From Terriglobales bacterium (GTDB lineage: Bacteria > Acidobacteriota > Terriglobia > Terriglobales > Acidobacteriaceae): 64,000 nt of DNA. The stretch's first letter is position 1; the number at the start of each line of letters is the position of its first letter. The stretch spans positions 1-64,000 of the forward strand of contig DASRFG010000029.1 of the NCBI GenBank assembly GCA_035651655.1, given 5' to 3'. The notes under the pieces were generated by a model. That model worked only from the letters and a program-made list of their open reading frames with translations, was not told where the DNA came from and did no database searches. This document shows, piece after piece, positions 1,589 through 10,865 of this stretch. A program made the translations under genes and the position numbers.

Positions 1589-3037
1589 TTAACACGCTAC
1601 TGGCAACGAAAAATAAAACACCGATCCCCGGCCTAGCTGGCTAGTCACACCGATTGTGCCTCCGTGTAGTTCGACAATCGCTTTTGCGATCGCCAATCCC
1701 ATACCGGTGCCCTGAATGGATACTCTCTGGTTTCGCCCACGATAGAACTTCTCAAAAATCATTGACTGTTCAATATCGTCAATGCCAGGGCCGTGGTCGG
1801 CCACGCTGGTCACCAGTTGGCTGTCGCGCAATTCGGCGGTGATGTGCACAGGCGTGCCCGGCGGCGAGTATTTGCCTGCATTTTCCAGCAACTGGGCAAG
1901 CACTTCGGCAATACGCCGCACGTCCATACGCACCGGGGGAAGATTATCGGGGATGGAGACGTCCACCTTATGGTTCTCCAGAACGTGCTTGGAGTCCTGG
2001 AGCGCGGAATCCACGGCTTCGCGAATCTGATATGGCTGGAAATTAAGCTCGACCTGATGAGCGTCCAATTGTGCTACTTCCGTTGCCTCGCCGATCAGGC
2101 GATTGAGCCGATCGCTTTCCTCGTTGATTACCGTGGCCAGGTCTTTCAACTGCGGCTTGTCGAGTTCGACTTCAGACAGAAGCGTCTCCGCGGACGCTTT
2201 GATTGCGGTGAGCGGCGTCCGGAATTCGTGGGTTACGGAGTCGAGCAGCAATGAACGGAGCCGGTCGCTTTCCCGCGAGGCCTCGGCTTTTGTGAGCTTT
2301 TCCATGGTTGACACGCGCTCTATGGCAATGGCCACCAGGCTGCCGATTGCCTCCAGCGTCTCGCGAGACAAACTGCAGCCGAGCAGCCCCAGGCTTCCAA
2401 TCGAGCGCACCCCCATCCGCAACGGCATGAAACACGTACTATGTTGCCGATCCAGCACAGGTTCCCCGCGCTTGCTGATGGCGTTCAACTGTTCCGTTGA
2501 AATGAGCGACTGGACCGCAATGTCGGAGTAGTAAGTCTTCTGCTTGTTCTCCAGAAAGATAGCGGCGCCGCTTACTCCGAGAGACGCCACCACGAATCCG
2601 GGAACGTTGTTCAGCAATCCAAAGACGTTATCGCTAAGCAGGAGTTGTTGGCTAAACATGTAAAGCCGTTCCAGCTCGCGACGGCGCTGATGCGATTGCA
2701 ATGCTTCGCGACGCGCTCGCTCGGATAATTGGCTGGCAATTGTTGCGGTCGCCAGGAACGTGAGGAGCGCTACCCAGTTTTGTGGGTCGGCGATAGTGAA
2801 ATGAAACAATGGTGGCAGGAAAAAATAGTTGTAGGCCAGTGTCGCAAGCAGAGCCGTGAAAATCGCGTACCTCATTCCCCAGGTAGCGGAAATTAAGAGT
2901 ACGGCGAGCAAGAAAGTGAATCCCACGGTCGTGGGATTGACATGAATTATCCTCCAATAGACATAGGCGATTGCGGCAACTATCGATACCGCGGCAACGA
3001 AACGCAATAATGGTCGCCGGATGTCTTTCACGCGCAT
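1589..3037 (-). CDS. kdpD: KdpD-like sensor histidine kinase, C-terminal (membrane/kinase) half only
   Basis: This 482-aa protein matches the second half of classical KdpD, the sensor that phosphorylates KdpE during potassium limitation. Four membrane helices of the DUF4118 type occupy about residues 8-110, followed by a GAF-like region, a HisKA domain with phospho-acceptor His270 (VTHEFRTPL), and an HATPase domain with an N-box Asn (QLLENAGKYSPPG), a G1 box (DHGPGI) and a G2 box (GTGMGLAIAKAI). The KdpD N-terminal nucleotide-binding and Usp domains are absent. They are encoded by a separate gene that starts about 50 bp away on the opposite strand. ATG 3037 is preferred; an upstream start (3133) would overlap that gene. 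The two products probably act together. Confidence 0.88.
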   Translation of the reverse strand: MRVKDIRRPLLRFVAAVSIVAAIAYVYWRIIHVNPTTVGFTFLLAVLLISATWGMRYAIFTALLATLAYNYFFLPPLFHFTIADPQNWVALLTFLATATIASQLSERARREALQSHQRRRELERLYMFSQQLLLSDNVFGLLNNVPGFVVASLGVSGAAIFLENKQKTYYSDIAVQSLISTEQLNAISKRGEPVLDRQHSTCFMPLRMGVRSIGSLGLLGCSLSRETLEAIGSLVAIAIERVSTMEKLTKAEASRESDRLRSLLLDSVTHEFRTPLTAIKASAETLLSEVELDKPQLKDLATVINEESDRLNRLIGEATEVAQLDAHQVELNFQPYQIREAVDSALQDSKHVLENHKVDVSIPDNLPPVRMDVRRIAEVLAQLLENAGKYSPPGTPVHITAELRDSQLVTSVADHGPGIDDIEQSMIFEKFYRGRNQRVSIQGTGMGLAIAKAIVELHGGTIGVTSQLGRGSVFYFSLPVAC

Positions 3038-3087
3038 GATTGTATTCCATTCGACATTTGTGCCGACTGTCGACGAGAATAGCCACA

Positions 3088-4206
3088 ATGCCAAAGACGC
3101 CTGAGCAATGGCTGGAAGAAACAGCCGCGCCAAAGGAGCGAGGGATCTTCAAGCTCTTCCTGGGCTACGCCCCGGGCGTGGGTAAAACCTACAACATGCT
3201 CAGCGAGGGGATCCGCCGCCATAGCCGTGGCGAGGATGTCGTGATCGGCGTGGTAGAGACCCACGGACGTAAGGCAGTCGCGGAGCTTGCAACCCGGATG
3301 GATAGCGTCCCCCGCCGACAGATGCAATATAAAGGTGCGTCTTTCGAAGAGATGGACGTGGATGCCATCCTCGCCCGCAAACCGCAAGTTGTGCTGGTGG
3401 ATGAACTGGCCCATACCAACATCGAGGGCAGCAAACACCGTAAGCGTTACGAAGATGTTATGGAACTCCTGGACGCAAAGATCGACGTCATCTCAACTAT
3501 GAACGTGCAGCATATCGAAAGCCTGACGCCCCTCGTCCAAAGCATTACTGGCGTTCCAGTCCGCGAAACGGTCCCAGATTGGGTGCTGCAGCGGGTGAAT
3601 GAGGTTGTTTTGGCAGATCTGACCCCAGAAGCACTGCAGACGCGCATGCGGCGTGGTGACATCTACCCGGTGGACCGAGCGGAAAGAGCGCTGGGACATT
3701 TCTTCCGCCCCGGCAATCTCATCGCTCTTCGAGAGCTGGCTCTTCAGCAGGTCGCCAAAGCGGTGGATCGCAGCCTGGAATCTTATCTCGACAGGGAAGG
3801 CACGGGCAGCGCTGCCGTTCGTGAGCGCATTGGCGTCTGCATTAGCTCCAACCCCGTCGCGCAATATCTGATCGCGCGCGCAGGTCGAATGGCCAATCGG
3901 ATAGATGCAGAACTGTTCGTCATTTATGTGGACGTGGGAAGAGATAAAGGTCCGGAAGAACAACGCACGCTGGCCCAGAACATTCAGTTTGCCCAGAACC
4001 TTGGGGCCAAGATCCTCCGAGGCAAAGGCACGACTGTTGCGGAAGAAGTCGCAAAAATCGTCCGCGAAAATCACATCACACAAGTGATCTTTGGACGTTC
4101 AGCTCAGAGCGGTTGGAGGAGATACCTCTATCTTTCGGCAATACACAAGTTCCTGCGCGATGCTCCGCCTGTGGATGTTCACATCGTAACCCAAGAGGTG
4201 AAGTGA
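3088..4206 (+). CDS. kdpD: KdpD N-terminal half: KdpD input domain plus universal-stress-protein domain
   Basis: This 372-aa soluble protein corresponds to the cytoplasmic N-terminal input module of KdpD. A Walker-A-like loop lies at about residues 32-39 (GYAPGVGKT), and a Walker-B-like strand follows (VVLVDELAHTN). The KdpD domain continues to about residue 230, and a UspA-like domain fills about residues 245-370, with a GRS nucleotide-binding signature near its end. No transmembrane helix or kinase domain follows; the frame closes at 4206. ATG 3088 is chosen because it begins at the usual KdpD N-terminus, although the frame is open to 3040. KdpE starts 9 bases downstream, so the two are probably co-transcribed. 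The kinase half is the divergent neighbour. Lone KdpD N-domains are known in cyanobacteria, but here the missing half lies next door. Confidence 0.9.
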   Translation: MPKTPEQWLEETAAPKERGIFKLFLGYAPGVGKTYNMLSEGIRRHSRGEDVVIGVVETHGRKAVAELATRMDSVPRRQMQYKGASFEEMDVDAILARKPQVVLVDELAHTNIEGSKHRKRYEDVMELLDAKIDVISTMNVQHIESLTPLVQSITGVPVRETVPDWVLQRVNEVVLADLTPEALQTRMRRGDIYPVDRAERALGHFFRPGNLIALRELALQQVAKAVDRSLESYLDREGTGSAAVRERIGVCISSNPVAQYLIARAGRMANRIDAELFVIYVDVGRDKGPEEQRTLAQNIQFAQNLGAKILRGKGTTVAEEVAKIVRENHITQVIFGRSAQSGWRRYLYLSAIHKFLRDAPPVDVHIVTQEVK

Positions 4207-4215
4207 GCATCGCAA

Positions 4216-4917
4216 ATGCCTGAAGATGAGAAGCGAAAAATCCTCGTAGTTGATGACGAGCCGCAAATCACTCGCGTCCTGAAGACCACCCTGTCCACTC
4301 GCGGATACGCCATCCGAACCGCTGCCGATGGCGATGAGGCAGTCCAAACCATCAAACAGTGGTCGCCCGACCTGGTAATAACCGATCTGCGAATGCCCAA
4401 CATGGACGGCCTGGAGTTGTGCCGCTATATCCGGTCGAAGTCGCAGACGCCGATCATAGTTTTGTCGGTAAAAGGCGAAGACAAGATCAAAGTCGAAGCG
4501 CTGGATGCCGGCGCTGACGATTACGTGACCAAGCCGTTCAGCGTGCCTGAGTTGCTGGCGCGAGTGCGCGCGGCCCTGCGGCGCTCAGTGCCGACCCAAG
4601 CACTCGACCAGGGGCCGATCGCAGTCGGGCATTTTCGTATCGACCTGCAAGCGCACACTGTCCACGTGAGGAGCAAAGAAGTGCGCCTGACTCCGAAAGA
4701 GTTCGACCTGCTGGTTTATTTGGCACGTCGCCCCGGCAAGGTGGTGACTCATCGCGCGTTGCTATCGGGTGTGTGGGGCGAAAACAGCGTGGAGCAGCCC
4801 GAATACACTCGAGTCTTCGTCAACCACTTGCGCAAGAAAATTGAGCCCTCGGAAGGTAATCCTCGCTACATCCTGACTGAGCCGTGGATCGGCTATCGCT
4901 TCGAGCCGGGCGAGTAG
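4216..4917 (+). CDS. kdpE: KdpE, OmpR-family response regulator of the Kdp potassium system
   Basis: This 233-aa two-domain regulator carries a receiver (residues about 8-120) with the acidic pair in VVDDEP, phospho-acceptor Asp57 (VITDLRMP) and the conserved Lys in VTKPF. A winged-helix OmpR/PhoB output domain (about 135-230) follows, containing LTPKEFDLLVYLARRPG. Length matches KdpE. It follows the KdpD input-half gene by 9 bases and precedes the porin-kdpFABC cluster, so it is expected to activate that operon when phosphorylated. Four direct TTTTA boxes with 11-bp period just downstream are the obvious candidate binding site. Confidence 0.93.
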   Translation: MPEDEKRKILVVDDEPQITRVLKTTLSTRGYAIRTAADGDEAVQTIKQWSPDLVITDLRMPNMDGLELCRYIRSKSQTPIIVLSVKGEDKIKVEALDAGADDYVTKPFSVPELLARVRAALRRSVPTQALDQGPIAVGHFRIDLQAHTVHVRSKEVRLTPKEFDLLVYLARRPGKVVTHRALLSGVWGENSVEQPEYTRVFVNHLRKKIEPSEGNPRYILTEPWIGYRFEPGE

Positions 4918-4964: not shown

Positions 4965-5008
4965 TTTTACAAAACTTTTATGCACTTTTTATCCCCCTTT
5001 TATGCCTG
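4965..5008 (+). promoter_or_regulatory. Four tandem 11-bp TTTTA boxes, candidate KdpE operator
   Basis: Four direct repeats start at 4965, 4976, 4987 and 4998, exactly 11 bp apart: TTTTACAAAAC, TTTTATGCACT, TTTTATCCCCC, TTTTATGCCTG. Direct repeats with helical phasing are typical sites for OmpR/PhoB-family regulators. The KdpE gene ends 47 bases upstream and the porin-kdpFABC genes begin about 28 bases downstream. That short distance suggests the boxes overlap the -35 region or that the transcript leader is very short. Binding by KdpE is inferred. Confidence 0.65.
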
Positions 5009-5036
5009 GCGTTGTTGAATTGAATTGACCGCGGCA

Positions 5037-6224
5037 ATGTTCATTCGGCCATCATCTCGTCTCAGAGATCGGCACCTTCAGCTTGGAATTTGCACCATCG
5101 CCCTGCTGGTCACTTCGTTGCGAGCGCAATCAGATACTCAGGCAAATGCGCCGGCCCTACCTCCCTGGCAATATGGCGGATTCGTGGACTCCGCCTACTT
5201 GTTGGATTTCAATTACCCTTCAAATCATTTGTTTCGCAGCCGAGGCACGACTTACAAGGTTGACGAGCCAATTCTTAACATGGCCGCCGCATACGTGCAG
5301 AAGAACACTTCCGAGTTATCGCGCTGGGGATTGCAATTGACTGTGCAGGGTGGACAAGACTCCAGGGTGTTTGGATTCTCCGCAACCGCACCCAACCTTG
5401 CCGGGTCCGAGTGGCTGCGCCATTTTGGGCCAACCAACGTTTCCTACTTGGCACCAGTCGGTAAGGGACTGACGCTGCAAGGTGGAATTTTCAGCAGCTT
5501 TATCGGCTACGACTCGCTCTATGCCAAGGACAACTTCAATTACACACGCCCCTGGGGCGCAGACTTCACGCCCTATTTGATGTTGGGCGTCAACGCTCAA
5601 TATCCGCTTACTAAAAAGCTAACAGCCGCCCTTTTTGTGATAAACGGCTATTGGCATTTGGCTGACGCCAACAGTGTTCCGAGTTCCGGCGGCCAAGTTG
5701 CGTTCAAACCCACTGAGCACACGACCTTTAAACAGACGGTGCTCTACGGGCCACACCAGTCGGATACATCACTTCAGTTCTGGCGGTTCTTGTCTGACAG
5801 TATCGCAGAGTGGAAGCACGACCCGGCTACGATTGCATTCGAATATCAGGTGTCAGAAGAAAGAGTTGCTACGGCTGGAAATCCGCGCGCCTTGTGGATG
5901 TCGGCGCAGTTGCCGGCGCACTGGAGTTTCAACAAGCACTGGAGCGCGACCGTGAGGCCTGAGGTTGCATGGGATCGCAACGGGCGCTGGACCGGATTCG
6001 CGCAGACGGTTAAAGCCTTCACCAGCACGCTGGAATACCGCATTCCATTCCGGCAAGCGAATGCCATCATACGATTGGAGCATCGGGTCGACGATTCCCG
6101 CGGGCCCGGCGGTGGCTTCTTCAACGATGGGGAAGTTCGTCCGGGCGTGGCTCGACTCACAGCAACGCAAAACCTTTTGATTTTGGGAGTGATTTTGACG
6201 TTCGATTCACAATTTCGTCCGTAG
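5037..6224 (+). CDS. Outer-membrane beta-barrel porin heading the kdp operon
   Basis: This 395-aa protein has an N-terminal signal peptide (hydrophobic core about residues 16-27, ending near RAQ). The body rich in alternating aromatic and polar strands is typical of the OmpL-like beta-barrel porin family (porin-2 type), and the last strand ends in TFDSQFRP. ATG 5037 is preferred over a TTG at 5025, though neither has a strong ribosome-binding site. It lies between kdpE and kdpF on the same strand, 16 bases before the next small gene. I infer it lets K+ cross the outer membrane when the inner-membrane Kdp pump is induced. The channel specificity cannot be read from sequence. Confidence 0.72.
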   Translation: MFIRPSSRLRDRHLQLGICTIALLVTSLRAQSDTQANAPALPPWQYGGFVDSAYLLDFNYPSNHLFRSRGTTYKVDEPILNMAAAYVQKNTSELSRWGLQLTVQGGQDSRVFGFSATAPNLAGSEWLRHFGPTNVSYLAPVGKGLTLQGGIFSSFIGYDSLYAKDNFNYTRPWGADFTPYLMLGVNAQYPLTKKLTAALFVINGYWHLADANSVPSSGGQVAFKPTEHTTFKQTVLYGPHQSDTSLQFWRFLSDSIAEWKHDPATIAFEYQVSEERVATAGNPRALWMSAQLPAHWSFNKHWSATVRPEVAWDRNGRWTGFAQTVKAFTSTLEYRIPFRQANAIIRLEHRVDDSRGPGGGFFNDGEVRPGVARLTATQNLLILGVILTFDSQFRP

Positions 6225-6240: not shown

Positions 6241-6327
6241 ATGCAGGATTTTATTTTCGTCGCGGTGACGGTACTGTTTTTCGTCATGTCTATTGGCTAC
6301 GTTCGCTTCTGCGAAAAAGAGAAGTGA
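6241..6327 (+). CDS. 28-aa single-span membrane peptide upstream of kdpF
   Basis: ATG 6241 is preceded by a clear Shine-Dalgarno (CGGAGG, about 7 bases upstream) and the frame closes at TGA 6325-6327. The peptide has one hydrophobic helix (about residues 4-19, rich in Val and Phe) and a charged tail (RFCEKEK). It is too short for ordinary gene calls. It sits 16 bases after the porin and 12 bases before kdpF. It does not match the KdpF pattern as well as the next small gene. It could be an additional Kdp accessory peptide or a KdpF paralogue. The tiny size limits confidence, but the SD and position support real translation. Confidence 0.55.
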   Translation: MQDFIFVAVTVLFFVMSIGYVRFCEKEK

Positions 6328-6339
6328 GATCAAAACGCT

Positions 6340-6429
6340 ATGCACCTGGAATCGGCAATCATGCTCACAGTAAGCGCTTTGATGATGGTGTACTTGCTAT
6401 ACGCGCTGCTTCGCCCGGAGAAATTCTGA
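6340..6429 (+). CDS. kdpF: KdpF, small subunit of the Kdp potassium pump
   Basis: This 29-aa single-helix peptide ends in YALLRPEKF, the typical KdpF tail (Tyr-Ala-Leu-Leu/Ile then a Pro/Ala-Glu-Lys/Ala-Phe end). KdpF is a lipid-like stabiliser of the KdpABC complex in the inner membrane. It ends one base before the kdpA start codon, so translation is likely coupled. Its own SD is weak (GTGAGAT). Size and position are exactly those expected. Confidence 0.82.
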
Positions 6430-6430
6430 C

Positions 6431-8230
6431 ATGACGGTGAATGGATGGCTGCAGATCGCTGTCTTTTTCGGGCTGGTTCTCGCGGTCACCAAACCCATAG
6501 GCATCTTCATGGCGCGCGTCTTCAGCCGCGAGAGGACGTTCATGGATCCGGTGCTGCGCCCCGTCGAGCGCCTGCTCTACCTCGTGACCGGAGCGGACGA
6601 AAACCATGAGATGCGCTGGACGGAGTACGCCGTTTCGATGCTGCTATTCAGCCTGGTGCCGATGCTGCTCCTGTACTTGATGGAACGTATACAGGGATTC
6701 CTGCCGTTCAATCCGCAAAAACTGGCGGCGGTCCCGCCCGCGCTGGCGTTCAATACGGCAGCGTCTTTTACCACCAATACCAACTGGCAGAATTATAGCG
6801 GCGAAACCACCATGAGCTATTTGACCCAAATGGCTGGCCTTGCCTACCACAACTTCATTTCTGCCGCCGTAGGTATCGTGCTGGCCATCGCTTTCATTCG
6901 AGGCATCGCGCGCCGCGAGAAGGAAACGATCGGCAACTTCTGGGTTGATCTGGTGCGCTGCACTTTGTGGGTTTTACTGCCGTTCTGCCTGGTTGGCTCG
7001 CTGCTCCTGGTCTCGCAGGGCGTGGTTCAAAATCTTAAGCCCTATGACACGGTGAAACTCGTCGAGCCCCAGCAGGTGCAGAAGACCGGCCCTGACGGCA
7101 AGCCGATGGTCGGTCCCGACGGCAAGCCAGTGATGGACACGGTCACGGAACAGGTGATCGCGCAGGGTCCCGTAGCTTCACAGGAAATTATCAAAGAGTG
7201 GGGCACGAACGGCGGCGGTTTTTTTAACGCCAACAGCGCTCACCCGTTCGAGAATCCGACACCATTGTCTAACCTCATTGAACTGTTCTCGATCTTCGCA
7301 GTTTCTTCCGGTTTGACGTACACACTCGGCCGCATGACGGGCTCACAAGCGCATGGCTGGGCAGTGTGGGCGGCCATGGCAGTTCTGTTTGTAGCCGGTG
7401 TGAGCACCACGTACTGGGCGGAAGCTCGCGGAAATCCGCTGCTGCCAAGCGGCGTTGACCAGCGTGTGAACGCTCTGCAACCGGGCGGAAATATGGAGGG
7501 CAAGGAAGTACGCTTCGGAATCGCCAATACAGCTTTGTGGGCCACTGTCACCACGGACGCAAGTTGCGGCGCCATCAACGGCTGGCACGATTCCTTCACG
7601 CCGCTCGGCGGGTTGGTGCCGCTGGTGAACATCATGCTCAGCGAGGTGATCTTCGGCGGAGTGGGCGCCGGGATGTACGGCATTCTTATTTATGTGGTGC
7701 TGGCGGTATTCATCGCCGGACTTATGGTGGGCCGCACGCCTGAGTATCTCGGAAAGAAGATTGAAGCCTACGACGTGAAGATGGCCATGCTTGTAGTTCT
7801 GGTGTTTCCGCTGGTGATCCTGGTTTTCACGGCGATTTCGGCAATTAAGCCGTTCGGCACTTCGAGCATTCTGAATCCCGGGCCGCACGGCTTGAGCGAG
7901 ATCCTCTACTCCTTTACATCGCAAGCGGGAAACAACGGCTCTGCCTTCGCAGGACTGACCACGAACACGCTTTGGTACAACACCGCCGGTGGTTTAACAA
8001 TGTTGATTGGGCGCTTCTTCATGATCATCCCCATGCTGGCAATTGCCGGCAATCTCGCTCGCAAGCGCTATGTGCCGCCATCGCTCGGCACTTTTCCCGT
8101 GACCACGCCGCTGTTCACCGTGCTCCTGGTCGGCGTGATCATCATTGTGGGCGCGCTGACTTTTTTCCCAGCCTTGAGCCTGGGACCGATTTTGGAACAC
8201 CTGTTGATGATGGCTGGCAAGACGTTCTGA
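6431..8230 (+). CDS. kdpA: KdpA, potassium-translocating channel subunit of the Kdp ATPase
   Basis: KdpA (599 aa) is the K+-channel-like subunit of the high-affinity KdpFABC importer. The four selectivity-filter/P-loop blocks typical of the family are present: [51 protein letters not shown] and [13 protein letters not shown]. About ten membrane helices are visible. It is about 40 residues longer than the E. coli protein. Part of the excess is a periplasmic-loop insertion near residues 220-240 containing a tandem GPDGKP repeat. It starts 1 base after kdpF and is followed 9 bases later by kdpB. Confidence 0.97.
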
Positions 8231-8239
8231 GAATTATTT

Positions 8240-10267
8240 ATGGCGACCAAGAAAAAGGCTGTCTGGGAATGGAAGATCGTTCGTCGTGCCATATGGGACG
8301 CATTCCTGAAACTTAACCCGCGCAAGATGATGGGGAACCCTGTCATGTTCGTGGTGGAGATTGGCAGCGTAATCACAACTGTGTTGCTGGTCCGCGGCGG
8401 CACAGCCTTCAAGTTCAATCTGCAGATCACACTGTGGCTGTGGTTCACGGTGCTGTTCGCTAACTTCGCTGAGGCCATGGCGGAAGGCCGCGGCAAAGCC
8501 CAGGCGGACACCCTGCGCCGAGCACGCGCGGAGACGGTGGCGAATCGCATTCTGGTGAATGGCAAGAGCGAAAAAGTTCCCAGTTCACACCTGCGCGCTG
8601 GAGATACGGTCCTTGTCTCGGCAGGTGAATTCATCCCCTCGGATGGCGAGATCATCGAGGGCGTAGCTTCAGTTGACGAGTCTGCCATAACCGGCGAATC
8701 CGCGCCCGTCATTCGCGAGGCTGGCGGCGATCGCTCAGCAGTAACGGGTGGCACTCGGGTTCTTTCGGATCACATCAAAGTTAAGGTGACCTCCAATCCC
8801 GGCGAAACCTTTCTTGATCGAATGATCGCCCTGGTGGAAGGTGCGGAACGCCAAAAAACGCCCAATGAAATTGCTTTGAATATTCTGCTCGCCGGTTTGA
8901 CCATCATCTTTTTGCTGGCGGTCGTGAGCCTGCAGCCTTTCGCCATCTACTCCGGTTCGCCGCAGAGCGTCTTCGTGCTGGTGTCGCTGCTGGTGTGTCT
9001 GATCCCGACCACCATAGGCGGCCTGCTCTCGGCCATCGGTATTGCCGGCATGGACCGGCTGATTCAGCACAACGTGCTCGCCATGTCGGGCCGCGCCGTG
9101 GAGGCGGCCGGCGACGTGAACACGCTCCTGCTGGACAAAACTGGCACCATCACCCTCGGCAATCGCCAGGCATCGCGCTTCATTCCGGCGCCAGGGGTCA
9201 CGGAGCGAGAGTTGGCAGACGCCGCACAGCTTTCTTCATTGGCGGACGAGACCCCCGAAGGCCGTTCGATCGTGGTCCTCGCCAAAGAGATGTACGGCCT
9301 GCGTGGTCGCGAGCTGTCGTCTCGGGAGGCTCAGTTCGTGCCCTTCTCGGCGCAGACGCGCATGTCCGGTGTGAACCTCGATAGTTTCGAAATTCGCAAG
9401 GGTGCGACCGACGCAATAAGAAACTATGTCTGTCAAAACGGCGGCGATTTCCCGAGCCAGGTCCAGGAGCAAGTGGACCAAATCGCCCGTTTCGGCGGCA
9501 CGCCGCTGGTAGTTGCCGAGAAAGGTCGCGGTGCACTTGGTGTCATTGAACTAAAGGACATTGTGAAGGGCGGAATGCGCGACCGCTTTGACCAGCTTCG
9601 TGCCATCGGTATTCGAACCGTGATGATTACCGGTGACAATCCGCTCACCGCTGCCGCCATTGCGCGTGAGGCTGGCGTGGACGACTTCCTGGCGCAAGCC
9701 ACTCCCAAGGATAAAATGGATTTGATCAAGCGGGAACAAGCCGGTGGCAAGCTGGTCGCAATGACCGGCGACGGCACCAACGACGCTCCCGCCCTGGCCC
9801 AGGCAGACGTTGGCGTGGCCATGAACACCGGCACGCAGGCCGCCAAAGAAGCCGGCAACATGGTGGACCTCGACTCCAATCCCACTAAACTCATCGAGGT
9901 AGTCGAAATCGGCAAGCAGCTTCTGATGACGCGCGGCGCGCTGACGACGTTTTCTATCGCGAACGACGTTGCCAAGTATTTCGCGATTATCCCGGCGATG
10001 TTCGCCGGCACCTTCCCGGTGCTGAATGCGCTGAACATTATGCATTTGCAGACCGCCCAGTCGGCAGTATTATCGGCGGTCATCTTTAACGCTCTCATTA
10101 TTATTGCGTTGATCCCTCTCGCGCTGCGGGGCGTGAAATACCGGCCGATGGGGGCAGCCGCGCTGTTGCGGCGCAATCTGTGGCTCTATGGATTTGGGGG
10201 AATTATCATCCCGTTCATTGGGATCAAACTGCTTGATGTTTTAATCATGCACGTGGGTCTGGCGTAG
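8240..10267 (+). CDS. kdpB: KdpB, P-type ATPase catalytic subunit of the Kdp system
   Basis: KdpB (675 aa) couples ATP hydrolysis to K+ import. The P-type hallmarks are all present: the TGES actuator loop (ITGESAPV), phosphorylated Asp299 in [10 protein letters not shown], the nucleotide-binding KGAT motif (IRKGATDA), and the hinge [12 protein letters not shown]. Length matches the family (682 in E. coli). Membrane helices lie at about 35-90, 220-280 and 575-670. Tight spacing to kdpA (9 bases) and kdpC (10 bases) indicates one operon. Confidence 0.98.
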
Positions 10268-10277
10268 AGAAGCTTAC

Positions 10278-10865
10278 ATGAAAAATAATTTGCTCACTGC
10301 CCTCTGGATGACCATCGCGACCACCATACTGCTAGGTATCATCTACCCGCTGGTAGTCACCGGCATCGCGCAACTTGTGTTTCCTGCTAAGGCCAATGGC
10401 CAATTGATCCAGCGCGACGGAACCATCATCGGGTCGCGGATCATCGGCCAGCCCTTCACTGGTCCGGCATATTTCCATTCTCGACCCTCGGCAGCGGGAA
10501 ATGGTTACGATGCTGCGAACTCAGGTGGCACGAACCTGGGGCCGACCAACCATAAGCTGATTGACCGCGTACAACAGGACGCCGCTGCGTTGTCGGCCGG
10601 GAATTCGGGAAAGCCTATCCCAATCGATCTGGTCACCACCTCTGCCTCTGGCCTGGATCCCAACATTTCTCTTGCGGCTGCGGATTTCCAGATCGCCCGC
10701 GTGGCACGCGAACGCGGAATCAGCGAAGATCAGCTCCGCGGACTGATCGCTACCCACACTGCAGGCCGGCAGCTTGGATTTTTGGGGGAGGTCCGCGTGA
10801 ACGTCCTTGAGCTGAACCTTGACTTGGATTCAAAACACCCACTGCAGGAGCATACTTCGAGGTAA
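10278..10865 (+). CDS. kdpC: KdpC, assembly/affinity subunit of the Kdp ATPase
   Basis: KdpC (195 aa) has one N-terminal membrane helix (residues about 8-30) and a periplasmic domain with the family block QPFTGPAYFHSRPSA and the VTTSASGLDPNIS motif. Its length is normal (190 in E. coli). It is last in kdpFABC. The 224 bases downstream hold no gene that I can support and no strong terminator. A short 6-bp hairpin (CTACTG/CAGTAG) lies in this gap but lacks a T-run. Confidence 0.96.
   Translation: MKNNLLTALWMTIATTILLGIIYPLVVTGIAQLVFPAKANGQLIQRDGTIIGSRIIGQPFTGPAYFHSRPSAAGNGYDAANSGGTNLGPTNHKLIDRVQQDAAALSAGNSGKPIPIDLVTTSASGLDPNISLAAADFQIARVARERGISEDQLRGLIATHTAGRQLGFLGEVRVNVLELNLDLDSKHPLQEHTSR

Follow-up and report, generated by a model that had tools for sequence, protein, structure and literature searches.

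The porin-kdp operon in this Terriglobales genome very probably has an activator-dependent promoter, in which phosphorylated KdpE (KdpE~P) bound to four half-sites would take the place of the −35 contact. The candidate operator of this porin-micropeptide-kdpFABC promoter is an array of four 11-bp direct repeats, TTTTACAAAAC TTTTATGCACT TTTTATCCCCC TTTTATGCCTG, on the forward strand at positions 4965-5008 of the window, the 64-kb stretch of DNA analysed here. It lies within the 119-bp gap between kdpE (4216-4917) and the gene for a BBP2-family outer-membrane porin (5037-6224). The TTTTA cores start at 4965, 4976, 4987 and 4998, a step of exactly 11 bp. Half-site 1 (TTTACA, 4966-4971) has the TTTA core of the E. 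coli S1 and S2 sites (PMC3264566). Half-sites 2 (TTTATG, 4977-4982), 3 (TTTATC, 4988-4993) and 4 (TTTATG, 4999-5004) are defined by sequence and by comparison with relatives, the second from the relatives' profile, and half-site 3 spans the place expected for a −35 hexamer. These coordinates and the 11-bp phase reproduce the original prediction, as does the distance of about 28 bp from the end of the array to the porin ATG at 5037.

The prediction that such repeats are unlikely by chance, and that they could be sought across the genome, also held up. Among 20,000 dinucleotide shuffles of the 119-bp gap, zero contained a run of three or more TTTTA at any period from 9 to 13. Within the window, three 11-bp-phased TTTTA with at most two mismatches occur at a single place, the array, against an expectation of 0.03. 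Genome-wide pattern searches gave the same answer: with at most one mismatch the array is the only match in the 4.07-Mb genome (reversed-pattern control, 0), and it is again the sole match when the −10-like box is added to the pattern and up to three mismatches are allowed. A scan of the 64 kb with the relatives' profile found no second operator.

The array is embedded in a kdp locus, in which all genes except the histidine kinase lie on the forward strand. kdpE encodes an OmpR/PhoB-type response regulator (Pfam Response_reg and Trans_reg_C), the proposed binder of the array. KdpD is split (1589-4206), with sensor and kinase encoded divergently, and such a split is common in the family. The sensor gene (3088-4206) encodes a KdpD-like non-kinase K+ sensor with the KdpD N-terminal domain and Usp (Pfam; NCBIfam NF038185, KdpD_non_kinase, scores below its cut-off), and domain models together with the relatives' arrangement identify the reverse-strand gene at 1589-3133 as a separate histidine kinase (DUF4118-HisKA-HATPase), the kinase half. 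Downstream of the array, the gene order is porin (PF07642, E 1.4e-51), micropeptide, kdpF (6340-6429; PF09604, TIGR02115), kdpA (6431-8230), kdpB (8240-10267) and kdpC (10278-10865), the last three assigned by Pfam. The 28-aa membrane micropeptide, MQDFIFVAVTVLFFVMSIGYVRFCEKEK, is encoded at 6241-6327 directly before kdpF; it was recognized from its sequence and from homologues that precede KdpF in many relatives, and has zero Pfam or NCBIfam matches. Terminator-like sites within the operon are no commoner than in shuffles. Because the gaps between the genes are also short and there is no second operator, a single promoter at the array plausibly drives the entire operon. A conserved protein of ~85 aa (MSxQEVSAEQLAELFHHYHQAL...), likewise with no Pfam or NCBIfam match, is encoded downstream of many kdp-cluster operators in relatives (L154, L163, L093, L109, L142 and others).

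Conservation of the array is evident from the kdp loci of related genomes. Positions of kdpA were taken from 150 genomes belonging to this family and 100 upstream regions were compared; at least two TTTA in 11-bp phase precede kdpA in 49 of the 100 loci, and at least three in 14. Of the periods tested, from 7 to 21, only 11 is enriched, every other period occurring in at most 8 loci, and 22 is its harmonic. So as not to build in the result, loci were picked solely by one TTTA-N7-TTTA pair and other recurring elements were then sought. Additional YTTA emerged at −22, −11, +22 and +33, with a frequency of 0-0.02 elsewhere, and YTTA is absent at +44, the place of a fifth unit; the array thus has exactly four units. 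With a leave-one-locus-out profile, scores exceed 12 bits in 88% of 101 kdp-upstream loci, which include close relatives and so are not 101 independent events, compared with 0.2% for a Markov null and 0% for reversed sequences. The arrays span many genera and several Acidobacteriota classes.

Alignment of the relatives also refines the core. The TTTTA that was originally proposed holds in the window but not beyond it: relatives share the core YTTA(C/T)G, their half-sites often have just two or three Ts, and by this comparison the fourth T of the window's TTTTA is a local embellishment. Arrays usually start 10-170 bp past the kdpE stop codon, and the ATG of the next gene often follows at +71 to +120 from the first half-site. 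A class-wide search for exact arrays returned 27 matches against 3 for the reversed pattern, most of them beside kdpE, kdpA or BBP2-like porins; those distant from kdpA mostly precede BBP2-like porins or small membrane peptides. Five of the exact matches (L143, L145, L158, L159 and L167) have no kdp link and no −10, and were set aside as likely to be chance matches or to serve other regulators. At some loci, two operators stand back to back in divergent orientation. Where a second kdp copy has no kdpE close by (L134, L135, L137, L138 and L140), the operator is mostly absent. The same array type is found in other Acidobacteriota classes. At one locus in a relative from another class (G497, L216:1479-1537), about six TTTA-type units stand in 11-bp phase, above the usual four. 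Several Nitrospirota genomes (L180-L195) also encode this porin family next to kdp genes, and a convincing four-unit array was not found at these loci.

The position of the array relative to a second conserved element points to a promoter of the activator-dependent type. Alignment of the relatives reveals a −10-like element, TTGAAT in the window (5015-5020, forward strand, +49 from the first half-site) and TnnAAT in relatives; the window version does not have the canonical A at position 2. In the pair-picked loci, T..A.T peaks at +49, +38 and +27, the latter two where the pair represents units 2-3 or 3-4. No TTGACA-like −35 is conserved among the aligned relatives, and the −35 position falls on units 3-4. 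The array had been expected to overlap the −35 element; it fills the −35 region, and its spacing to the −10-like box is constant. A consensus sigma-70 scan of the gap returned zero promoters, which is expected for a promoter without a −35 and hence neutral as evidence. Judged by the −10 alone, transcription is predicted to start at 5026-5028 on the forward strand; this implies a 5ʹ leader of only ~10 nt, and there is no clear ribosome-binding site. An ATG at +71 to +80 is also present in several relatives.

Together, these features suggest how the promoter may operate. When K+ is limiting, KdpE would be phosphorylated by the split KdpD system, and KdpE~P would then fill all four half-sites in head-to-tail order, most likely, as originally proposed, in the form of two dimers lined up on a single DNA face between about −61 and −23. 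In this position it could substitute for the missing −35 and recruit sigma-70 RNA polymerase to the −10, in the manner of PhoB at pstS. KdpE as the binder, the two dimers, the activation and the start site are all predicted from sequence. A search of the open-access literature found no KdpE-RNA polymerase structure and no earlier description of a doubled KdpE operator.

The number of functional half-sites could be smaller than four. A single pair, bound by one KdpE dimer, might suffice, with the second pair either reflecting sequence bias or being contacted by sigma in place of a −35. Two half-sites are enough in E. coli and in the sampled proteobacterial promoters, and units 3 and 4 are slightly less conserved than units 1 and 2 in the pair-picked loci. 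Nevertheless, this arrangement is rather unlikely, as all four cores are strongly conserved in the phylum but the fifth position is not, and units 3-4 resemble TTTA half-sites rather than TTGACA.

The original prediction of a tandem site for an OmpR/PhoB-type regulator, KdpE, is supported by four conserved units that adjoin kdpE and kdp genes and that probably represent KdpE half-sites, as their core is that of the E. coli KdpE half-site. The window KdpE shares 44% identity with E. coli KdpE, retains its phospho-acceptor D52, and keeps the DNA-contact residues R193, R200 and T215 as R199, R206 and T221. Against the NCBIfam KdpE equivalog NF007820, a model built for the PRK10529 set, it scores 199 bits and does not reach the cut-off of 325; the MtrA model gives a slightly better 205. 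The name KdpE therefore depends on gene order, and the identity of the regulator as KdpE appears to rest mainly on synteny. Because half-site core and step both match the E. coli KdpE site, we infer that KdpE is the probable binder.

Binding by another OmpR/PhoB-family regulator, or joint binding by KdpE and a paralogue such as a receiver-less KdpE-like protein, is very unlikely. Recognition of 11-bp direct repeats is common to the OmpR/PhoB family, the window KdpE is equally close to the models for MtrA and KdpE, and a gene for a KdpE-like protein consisting only of a DNA-binding domain stands beside the array in some relatives. However, the arrays are found after kdpE stop codons and with kdp genes, not with other regulators, they share their core with the E. 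coli KdpE half-site, and the window's kdp cluster contains no receiver-less paralogue. Among relatives, the proteins with only a DNA-binding domain are encoded next to arrays at L092:1504-1890 (in kdpA orientation) and L225:1716-2015, with similar cases at L074 and L125; such proteins might occupy half-sites in competition with KdpE.

A-tracts at helical phase bend DNA, and the T-runs of the window are spaced by about one helical turn. That the phased T-tracts merely create an intrinsic bend upstream of the promoter, with no protein operator, is nonetheless hardly credible. What relatives conserve is YTTA(C/T)G, often with two or three Ts, and not T-tracts, on which ground curvature was rejected; moreover, the array is strand-specific, has four units at most and is tied to kdp genes. 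The AT-richness of the gap (55% versus 44% for the window) would favour a functionless chance tandem repeat, but there is practically no likelihood of one, since the chance expectation is negligible and conservation across genera and classes already refutes this reading.

Outside the Acidobacteriota, the array was compared with E. coli and with plasmid-borne kdp loci. The E. coli KdpE site consists of 6-bp direct repeats, TTTATA-N5-TTTACA, in which altering TTTA abolishes binding, and the pair (kdpFABC-BS) lies at −72 to −50; no cooperativity was seen for the DNA-binding domain of E. coli KdpE (PMC3264566). Inspection of the E. coli sequence revealed no third or fourth half-site. The window array shares with this site the direct half-sites with a TTTA core, the 11-bp step (6 + 5 bp) and the location in a kdp promoter region, and its regulator is likewise of the OmpR/PhoB type with the same DNA-contact residues. 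Unlike the two half-sites of kdpFABC-BS, the window and the phylum have four, and so depart from a one-pair site. The E. coli pair also lies farther upstream, whereas the window array ends beside the −10 and covers the −35 position, and, although both sites are upstream of kdpF, the window operon opens with the porin gene. Of 13 plasmid kdp loci scanned, 7, all proteobacterial, have a half-site pair and none has a third or fourth unit; in the stretch examined, the other 6 have no exact adjacent YTTA pair.

The closest architectural parallel is the E. coli pstS promoter, which, read in the genome, has four 11-bp units and TATTTT at +50, which we take to be its −10. Both promoters have four 11-bp units, a −10 at nearly the same distance (+49 here), a last unit ~10 bp before the −10, and no conserved −35. 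They differ in core (YTTA(C/T)G rather than CTGTCAT), in regulator and signal (PhoB and phosphate at pstS) and in gene context, a kdp operon rather than a phosphate regulon gene. By analogy, the array may work like a pstS-type promoter, at which PhoB acts by recruiting RNA polymerase (PMC10294691), yet by core and gene context it would belong with KdpE operators. Direct repeats of 11 nt, in varying number, also make up other tandem sites of the OmpR/PhoB family, including the Streptomyces PHO operators, both simple and complex (PMC4415409). These sites differ from the array in core and regulator, and most loci here have a constant four repeats. Mapped KdpE sites were known from four species as of 2017 (PMC5401905). 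The site in Mycobacterium smegmatis is, like the window array, upstream of kdpFABC and is bound by KdpE, where binding is predicted here; it is a 22-bp A-rich sequence with no similarity to the TTTA type (PMC5401905).

A doubled KdpE operator seems to be typical of kdp promoters throughout the Acidobacteriota and not a peculiarity of this genome. A broader proposal remains tentative, with somewhat poorer than even prospects: a phylum-wide promoter of four fixed half-sites, at which two KdpE dimers replace the −35, combined with a wider potassium regulon that takes in BBP2-like porins, unannotated membrane micropeptides and receiver-less KdpE-like proteins, which might compete for these half-sites. 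The doubled, rigidly spaced operator provides a sequence handle in a little-studied soil phylum, from which places of KdpE binding, transcription starts and additional potassium-response genes, including those for outer-membrane porins and small membrane peptides, can be predicted. It also suggests that the same kind of regulator activates the kdp genes of E. coli and of acidobacteria from different promoter geometries.
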